Positions 24,636-26,068 of a DNA stretch of 38,417 nt are shown here, in pieces. Where the stretch lies: the NCBI RefSeq assembly GCF_000377945.1, contig NZ_KB898948.1, positions 1-38,417 of the forward strand. The letters are read 5' to 3'. The DNA is from Thioalkalivibrio sulfidiphilus (GTDB taxonomy: Bacteria; Pseudomonadota; Gammaproteobacteria; Ectothiorhodospirales; Ectothiorhodospiraceae). Positions within the stretch are counted from its first letter, which is position 1; every line of letters begins with the position of its first letter. The notes under the pieces are model-generated. The model did not search any database. It had not been told where the DNA came from and worked only from the letters and a program-made list of their open reading frames with translations. Both the position numbers and the translations under genes were made by a program.

Positions 24636-24713
24636 TCAATCGGTGGCAGCTTCGTTCAGCATGTCTGCATACAACCGGTCCAGGCGTGCGACAAAGACCG
24701 TCTTGTCGATCAT
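24636..24713 (-). pseudogene. Truncated HEPN (HepT-like) toxin remnant
   Basis: A 25-codon frame starting ATG in a 4-bp ATGA overlap with the mntA-like stop codon, the usual coupling of MNT-HEPN pairs. It reads [20 protein letters not shown] then EAATD and stops. The start resembles the first helix of HEPN toxins, but the RX4-6H active site and everything else is missing, and the epimerase ribosome site begins 17 bp later. It is best read as a toxin gene deleted after its first helix. The fragment is too short for a firm family call. Confidence 0.5.
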
Positions 24714-25135
24714 GTACGGACCGCACCTGCCGTGGCCCGGAGCGCCGCATCATGCGGTGCACGCAGGGCGTGGGTATCGAAGTATTCCGACATGGCCCGA
24801 ACCTCGAAAGGTACGCGCACGTCGTTGTCGCCCTTGAGCAGGAGACCATCACGGACCACGTTGAAGCGCAACACAGGCGAGACCAGATCCAGATCGACGA
24901 GGTCGACCCGGTCGGACCCCAGGTGCCGGCATAAGGCATCCTGAAGCTTGAGCCTTTCGTCCAGCGTGTGATCGGCACCAGGCGACATTCTGATCGCCAC
25001 ATCCACGTCGCTCATCGGACCGGTCGTGCCACGGGCCGTCGAACCAAACAGATAGGCGAGTTCCACATGAGGCTGAGCAGAGAAAAACATTTGCAGCCTT
25101 GCAATCAGGTTCTCGTTGTTGGGCTTGGTGTCCAT
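24710..25135 (-). CDS. MNT-type nucleotidyltransferase (MntA-like antitoxin)
   Basis: 141 residues from the ATG at 25135; in-frame ATGs at 25165 and 25204 would add 10 or 23 residues. The minimal nucleotidyltransferase signature is clear: VELAYLFGSTARGTTGPMSDVDVAIRM (GS-x-ARG then SDVD) and VDLVDLDLVSPVLRFNVVRDG. Such proteins pair with a HEPN toxin and silence it by AMPylation in the known MntA-HepT systems. Here the partner directly downstream is cut to 25 codons. The C-terminus (RAPHDAALRATAGAVRT) also looks irregular. It lies just after hicB on the same strand, within the nucleotide-sugar block. Confidence 0.8.
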   Translation of the reverse strand: MDTKPNNENLIARLQMFFSAQPHVELAYLFGSTARGTTGPMSDVDVAIRMSPGADHTLDERLKLQDALCRHLGSDRVDLVDLDLVSPVLRFNVVRDGLLLKGDNDVRVPFEVRAMSEYFDTHALRAPHDAALRATAGAVRT

Positions 25136-25221
25136 GGTGAACGAAGTGACGGTTGGAGACTGCATGCAAGCGCCCAGATCAACCGGCACCGGAGTTGTCG
25201 GCATCCGAATTGAACCTGTCG

Positions 25222-25431
25222 TCAGGCGACATCAACGTACTCGACATGACTGCTCGGAGGAGGGATGGGCTCACCGTCTTCCCGCATGCCATCAAGATGA
25301 AACTCAATGGCTTCCCGAATCTGCTGTTCTACCTCTTCGATTGTTGTACCGGTAGCAATACAGCCGGGCAAATCTGGCACATAGGCTGAGTAGTTGTTAT
25401 CTGCCTTTTCAATGACGATTGCGTACCTCAT
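25222..25431 (-). CDS. hicB: HicB-family antitoxin
   Basis: 69 residues, short HicB type (MRYAIVIEKADNNYSAYVPD, then LPGCIATGTTIEEVEQQIREAIEFHLDGM). The partly degraded RNase H-like fold is typical of antitoxins that neutralise HicA mRNA interferase. The start at 25431 has AGGTG upstream. It lies 8 bp after the stop codon of the hicA remnant, the normal hicA-hicB order. The frame is open and well conserved, whereas hicA is destroyed. No separate DNA-binding domain is present. Confidence 0.88.
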   Translation of the reverse strand: MRYAIVIEKADNNYSAYVPDLPGCIATGTTIEEVEQQIREAIEFHLDGMREDGEPIPPPSSHVEYVDVA

Positions 25432-25474
25432 GATTGCACCTATTTCCAGCCCGCCTGTTTGTAAATGCTGTTTA

Positions 25475-25652
25475 GCCCGCATATCTCACCACCCTTCTAC
25501 TGCGGCCGCCGATCTGCTCGCTATGACGAGGCGTGCTCACTCCAGCCAGTTTGACGTAGTGTCGGCTACGCCGGCGCCGTCTTCCGCTCCGCTCGCCCCG
25601 TCACAGCGGCATCTCGGCGCCCTCGCTACGAACGGTGGCGAGATATGAGGGC
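25475..25652. mobile_element. 178-bp MITE inserted in hicA (TA target)
   Basis: Terminal inverted repeats GCCCGCATATCTCACCACC (25475-) and, on the other strand, GCCCTCATATCTCGCCACC (25652-) differ at two positions. Flanking TA at 25473-25474 and 25653-25654 is a 2-bp target duplication, as made by IS630/mariner-like transposases. Removing the element and one TA restores the HicA sequence GTL-NSIYK exactly. No transposase frame inside. Confidence 0.8.
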
Positions 25653-25759
25653 TAGGGTCCCGACAGCCAAATCGTCGCCGGGTTTTTCAGGCACCGTCAC
25701 CCGCCCAGGCTTTAGGGATGCTTCAATTGCCGGTAACTGCCACGTGTCGAGTGGAGATA

Positions 25760-25928
25760 CTAGGAGCCTGTCGGACTTAGGCTGCACCTACTGCGCCGGT
25801 GGGAGAGCGGCCCATTTTCCCGATCCTTTTCGTCAAATAGCGACGGCTATTCTCCTCAAACGATCGGGAAAATGACCTCGCTCTCCCACCCGGCTCGCTA
25901 CGGGCACCTAAGTCCGACAGGCTCCTAG
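25760..25928. mobile_element. 169-bp palindromic MITE inserted in hicA
   Basis: Perfect 22-bp terminal inverted repeats at 25760-25781 and 25907-25928 (starting CTAGGAGCCTGTCGG). The interior is self-complementary too (GGTGGGAGAGCG, CATTTTCCCGATC against GATCGGGAAAATG, CGCTCTCCCACC), so the whole element can fold into one long hairpin. CTAG at both ends may be the target site. It splits hicA after codon 14. No open frame. Confidence 0.8.
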
Positions 25929-26068
25929 CCATCTTCCTTCAGTTTGGTGAGAATATCACGTACTTTCACCTGCTTCGAAGATGCTCCCTTTGTTCCCTGA
26001 TCTGCTCAATTACCCTTACTGAGCCAATCGCTCGGCAGGGCTGGCGAGCCAGCTCCGGCTGATATCCA

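Follow-up and report, generated by a model that had tools for sequence, protein, structure and literature searches.

Orphan or solo antitoxins derived from degraded type II toxin-antitoxin loci are described in three papers (PMC2701414, PMC7192599 and PMC7354431). They are abundant in Klebsiella (PMC7192599) and in E. coli, where orphan toxins are abundant likewise (PMC10790755), so that the E. coli data presented there do not support one-sided loss as a general rule. Toxins found broken beside their antitoxin include, in PMC7354431, a parE pseudogene next to parD and a frameshifted YacB toxin, and solitary hicB genes are mentioned in PMC10865869. Among the titles listed by a search of the open-licence literature, none concerns MITEs inside hicA.

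Here we describe such a locus in a 38,417-nt stretch of Thioalkalivibrio sulfidiphilus DNA (contig NZ_KB898948.1; hereafter, the window), where an open antitoxin gene, hicB, adjoins the remains of its cognate toxin gene, hicA (Table 1). As in the orphan antitoxins of degraded loci described in those papers, the antitoxin is open and the toxin broken, a state common across genomes; the locus differs from them in that the toxin remains and part of the order of their lesions can still be read, and in that an adjoining, unrelated module has undergone the same one-sided loss. When compared with HicAB systems that have a minimal HicB (PF07927 plus PF15919), the window shares the hicA-hicB gene order, the C-terminal motifs of HicA and the HicB domain, the last in an open antitoxin gene beside hicA as in a functional pair. 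Its HicA differs: it is split, with a nonsense codon, a frameshift and a His-to-Tyr change, and no uninterrupted reading frame that includes the catalytic His is left.

Table 1. Features of the hicAB and mntA-hepT region, in window coordinates.
Feature	Position	Strand	Basis
hicA relic piece 1 (codons 1-14: GTG plus 13 codons)	25928..25969	-	sequence; tblastn to L059 HicA
MITE A (161-bp palindromic core 25764-25924; CTAG at 25760-25763 and 25925-25928)	25760..25928		sequence, copy search
hicA relic piece 2 (frameshifted; His24 to Tyr, Gly40 to Glu)	25656..25759	-	comparison with L059
MITE B (176-bp core 25476-25651; TTAG at 25472-25475, CTAG at 25652-25655)	25472..25655		sequence, copy search
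hicA relic piece 3 (last ten codons plus native stop)	25440..25475	-	sequence
hicB (69 codons, open)	25222..25431	-	ORF; Pfam PF15919 over cut-off
mntA-like nucleotidyltransferase antitoxin (open; GSX10DXD motif present)	24710..25135	-	motif, Pfam, likeness to L161
hepT remnant (25 codons)	24636..24713	-	comparison with G002 orthologue

An earlier, sequence-only reading had rebuilt HicA from three minus-strand pieces and had called for intact hicAB pairs to be sought in relatives. Such pairs were found (e.g., L059 and L061, which served as the references for calling lesions in hicA), and comparison with them bore out the reconstruction: the match to HicA keeps its order across the three pieces, from 25969 to 25440. 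A chance likeness to HicA is excluded, as the pieces match in order and the elements that separate them, A and B, are both multicopy. Codon 15 is TAG in the window and Trp in 11/11 aligned intact HicAs. The second piece is one base shorter than L059 around positions 25711-25714, causing a frameshift, and has Tyr in the invariant His24 column and Glu in the invariant Gly40 column; the amber codon, the base missing near 25712 and the replaced His had all been read correctly from the window. The corresponding His in other HicAs is named as important to RNase activity in the review PMC11594946. With a stop, a frameshift, missense changes and two MITE insertions, the window HicA is inactive. The genome is a draft of 69 contigs, and several MITE copies lie at contig ends, which might suggest that the broken hicA is an artefact of assembly; we consider this highly improbable, since the locus is internal to its contig, and neither the frameshift nor the missense changes fall within the repeats.

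The order of the lesions can be partly read at codon 15. In L059 and L061, hicA codons 14-16 are GGCTGGTAT, with the Trp codon in a CTGG context, whereas the window has GGCTAG, then element A, then CTAGTAT. CTAG thus flanks MITE A on either side, and the TAG of codon 15 is present at both junctions. One G-to-A change at Trp15 would have produced the stop and a CTAG site at once, and MITE A would then have inserted at this tetramer, the usual insertion site of two MITE families resident in the genome. Because L059 and L061 have CTGG at the place where the element is now bounded by CTAG at each end, the stop is probably older than the insertion of MITE A, which, judging from the flanks alone, would have entered an already dead gene; no empty site supporting this order was found. 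The claim that hicA was destroyed by two MITEs is therefore doubtful in that form, the stop having probably come before MITE A. MITE B inserted near the 3' end of hicA, and the frameshift and missense changes accumulated; the order of these later-read lesions, MITE B included, is unreadable.

Both elements are MITEs. Element A is assigned by its terminal inverted repeats (the ends of its core form 22-base arms that are 100% complementary), its copy number and the lack of room for a transposase; element B by terminal inverted repeats, many copies and a target site duplication. There are 7 near-full copies of element A in the genome, including that of the window, in addition to cut and shortened ones, and matches to it occur in 24/47 genomes of the family. 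Element B has 28 near-full copies (87-100% identity, the window's included) and matches in 10/47 family genomes, namely the 5 genomes of the genus, G037, and a further four in each of which there is one weak match. Like the known prokaryotic MITEs with CTAG-type sites, A and B are short, multicopy, bounded by terminal inverted repeats and too short for a transposase; they differ in being assigned here without an IS family and with no partner in the loci and plasmids searched. Indeed, no autonomous partner transposase for either was found in the fetched loci or the plasmid searches, in which neither MITE gave a match. At one locus of the genome (L015, G000:C14 near 74500), a short A-type copy abuts a similar-ended sequence running to the contig end; this sequence may be an insertion sequence and a possible mobilising partner.

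Flanks were counted in the fetched loci, which come from several genomes, on those copies that an exact search for the end motifs located. For element B, CTAG occurs on both sides in 19/29 copies and TTAA on both sides in 3/29, the tetramers being unequal in 7/29 and identical in 22/29; since the tetramer co-varies on the two sides, it behaves as a target site duplication. The palindromic element after codon 14, first reported as 169 bp, has a 161-bp core with CTAG on each side. The second element, reported as 178 bp and TA-flanked, does split off the last ten codons of hicA but has a 176-bp core and a four-base CTAG/TTAA-type site and not TA alone. For element A, CTAG is found on both sides in 8/12 copies and on at least one side in 11/12, and among these 12 copies there was neither a co-varying alternative tetramer nor an empty site; here, too, the tetramer is likely a target site duplication. 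By these counts alone, CTAG could instead belong to element A, in which case MITE A could have been the first hit, in a living hicA, with the TAG arising at insertion. We regard this as unlikely: a carried-in CTAG would require that the four bases CTGG were lost from hicA as well, the tetramer of element B co-varies like a target duplication, and neighbouring A and B hits in two genomes overlap as if one tetramer were shared. In these two cases (G003:C1:1637576-1637927 and G037:C169:7890-8231), A and B, or relatives of them, abut with hits overlapping by three bases, and the junction looks like a single common tetramer, CCAG in G037 (L253).

The tetramer CTAG is depleted in the window: dinucleotide frequencies predict about 58 sites and trinucleotide frequencies 39, but only 15 occur, 3 of them as flanks of elements A and B. 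Elsewhere in the genome (L005, G000:C20 near 59583), an element A copy lies at the end of a gene, which we take to be MutM-like, and the TAG of its CTAG is the stop of that gene. We considered whether CTAG-seeking MITEs prefer the amber codons of genes, and rejected this: TAG is in frame in 15/27 gene-like flanks, but the base pattern of many of these suggests antisense frames, and among the 12 flanks with a third-position GC of at least 0.79 only 4 have TAG in frame, a number in line with chance.

Directly downstream of the hicA relic, hicB is free of lesions, as had been read from the window: its frame is open, it passes the PF15919 cut-off, and it shows 0 departures at the 30 alignment columns for which 58 paired relatives reach 95% conservation. 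Its GC content is 51%, compared with 65% for the window, and hicAB is absent between the dehydrogenase gene and mntA in the two same-genus genomes inspected at this place, G002 and G004; the module was probably acquired horizontally. A promoter scan upstream of hicB found nothing. Two roles had been offered for the surviving antitoxin. That hicB is kept for regulation is a weak proposal, because Pfam finds no DNA-binding domain in the 69-residue HicB. As for neutralising another HicA, the suggested search of the genome did reveal two further HicA genes over the Pfam cut-off, and no second locus passes the PF15919 cut-off, which would leave room for the window HicB to act on one of them. Immediately upstream of each of these toxins, however, lies an open gene for a HicB-like protein (a DUF1902 match in one case, a UPF0150 match below cut-off in the other), and both toxins and their neighbours are far from the window pair in sequence, with the window HicB matching the two HicB-like proteins at about 27% over 26-52 residues. 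Because each toxin is so accompanied, rescue of a second HicA is not favoured by the sequences, and we hold it to be quite improbable.

A finding of the present analysis is that the mntA-hepT module beside hicAB has been disarmed as well. In HepT-MntA systems (PF01934 plus a polymerase-beta-type nucleotidyltransferase), MntA and HepT are defined by the motifs GSX10DXD and RX4HXY, respectively (PMC7641770). The window shares the mntA motif and synteny with the mntA-hepT of sister species, in which (G002 and G004) the gene order is dehydrogenase - mntA - hepT - epimerase; its mntA is 70-71% identical to theirs. The start of the window mntA was set by resemblance to L161; using an ATG further upstream would place it at 25204. 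The window hepT, in contrast, retains 25 of the 143 codons of the G002 gene, which matches PF01934 at 3e-26: about the first 13 and last 12 codons are joined in frame, the HEPN core is deleted, RX4HXY is gone and no Pfam match remains, so that no HepT toxin is recognizable. The module would thereby have followed the same toxin-first path, the HEPN toxin having been removed by a deletion that kept the frame. The dN/dS of mntA has not risen, which counts against simple toxin-first decay: it is 0.175 and 0.199 against the sisters, compared with 0.183 between the sister species and 0.13-0.17 for flanking genes.

To gauge the frequency of one-sided loss, profiles of HicB and HicA were run against 369 genomes of the class, which gave hicB (E up to 1e-12) in 34 genomes and hicA (E up to 0.001) in 59. 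In addition to the window, we fetched 55 loci, of which 42 were the remaining hicB hits, taken in full, and 13 were the stronger hits to hicA alone (E up to 1.3e-11), scored them by open frame with a script and then judged them by eye from the tables. Both genes were open in 32 loci, including L220, in which the hicA frame extends 144 codons beyond the usual end. The toxin was broken or absent and the antitoxin open in 11 (L190, L192, L202, L208, L211, L213, L218, L219, L221, L224 and L229), the reverse was seen in 0, and 12 were unclear, damaged in both genes or cut (L196, L198, L199, L201, L204, L205, L212, L222, L226, L228, L233 and L235). In three of the 11 one-sided loci (L192, L219 and L221) there was no trace of hicA, and an unrelated toxin may therefore be present there. 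Among the best 80 of 441 confirmed hicB hits, 58 were paired, 21 lacked a whole hicA (L088, whose hit spans a frameshift, was set to orphan by hand) and 1 was cut by its contig (L069); being chosen by hicB, this set cannot show the reverse case, and it overlaps with the class survey (L190 and L079 look like one contig). One-sided loss is thus common.

The best explanation, to which we assign a probability of about 0.75, is that a hicAB module, probably horizontally acquired, decayed toxin-first, and that HicB and MntA are most likely surplus antitoxins without a target. hicB would still be open because losing the toxin first is presumably harmless, because the opposite order would presumably harm the cell, and because hicB has probably not had long enough to decay. 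A competing account builds on the anti-addiction role proposed for orphan antitoxins in PMC7354431 and PMC10790755: hicB, and mntA with it, would be selected against related toxins carried by plasmids, phages or islands. The intact conserved columns of the window hicB speak for it, as does the retention of antitoxins only by two adjacent modules. So does the comparison with the closest relative, L058, which also has no whole hicA (its N-terminal half is missing): between the two hicB genes, 7 changes are nonsynonymous and 15 synonymous, a dN/dS of about 0.10. However, L058 and the window have 0 hicA lesions in common, and an ancient hicA loss common to both was rejected on this ground; this dN/dS, although low in the comparison that had been proposed, therefore cannot be dated to the orphan period, and the divergence of hicB may mostly predate the loss of hicA.

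A tree of 80 hicB sequences, 22 of them orphans including the window, was built quickly from 207 columns, and many of its branches are weak. On it, the orphan label changes 19 times, compared with 19.5 in shuffled labels (228/500 as low), and the well-supported branches alone force only 5 changes. This scatter fits repeated, mostly separate losses of hicA, and the candidate pattern of orphan hicB persisting as clades was rejected for want of overall clustering. The one supported orphan group (L092, L116 and L132; SH-aLRT 92) keeps hicB open, in favour of the anti-addiction account; between L116 and L132, hicB has 7 nonsynonymous and 27 synonymous changes, the pattern of a lasting, constrained orphan. 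The hicA lesions of the trio look unshared, with a stop at the Trp codon in L092, Trp in the weak remnant of L132 and no trace of hicA in L116. L092 (2806-2988) comes from a different bacterium, where the stop lies at the same HicA Trp codon as in the window and the rest of hicA is readable; its loss is apparently independent of the window's.

Outside this trio, orphans are scattered like shuffled labels, and orphan hicB genes are not more conserved than paired ones (a mean of 0.62 violations of conserved columns compared with 0.40; one-sided p = 0.27), both of which speak against selection for anti-addiction and lead us to consider it unlikely. A broader version, in which two unrelated adjacent modules were disarmed and their antitoxins kept as an immunity bank for use when HicA and HepT toxins arrive from outside, we consider slightly less likely again. 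Orphan hicB thus shows no clear change in constraint, and toxin-first decay therefore suffices as an explanation. Were both genes equally neutral, the chance of six lesions in hicA and none in hicB would be about 0.011, or 0.050 when only the four unambiguous lesions are counted, an imbalance that mildly favours some constraint on hicB after the death of hicA. Constraint may therefore have acted on hicB during some of this period, while nothing demands a new role. Of the readings first offered, a recent and one-sided decay fits best.

The category of such loci is already known, and the process is an ordinary one with an instructive anatomy: this locus adds a partly readable order of events, one-sidedness in a HicAB subfamily and a paired loss alongside. 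It offers a readable case of the death of a toxin-antitoxin pair: the toxin goes first, a point mutation being the probable cause, and a mobile element then enters the site so made. The survey turns this single case into a measurable asymmetry, 11 against 0 when 55 loci of one class are scored. Because two toxins were lost side by side, the locus is also well suited to testing whether antitoxins that outlive their partners protect cells against incoming toxins or are merely slow to vanish.
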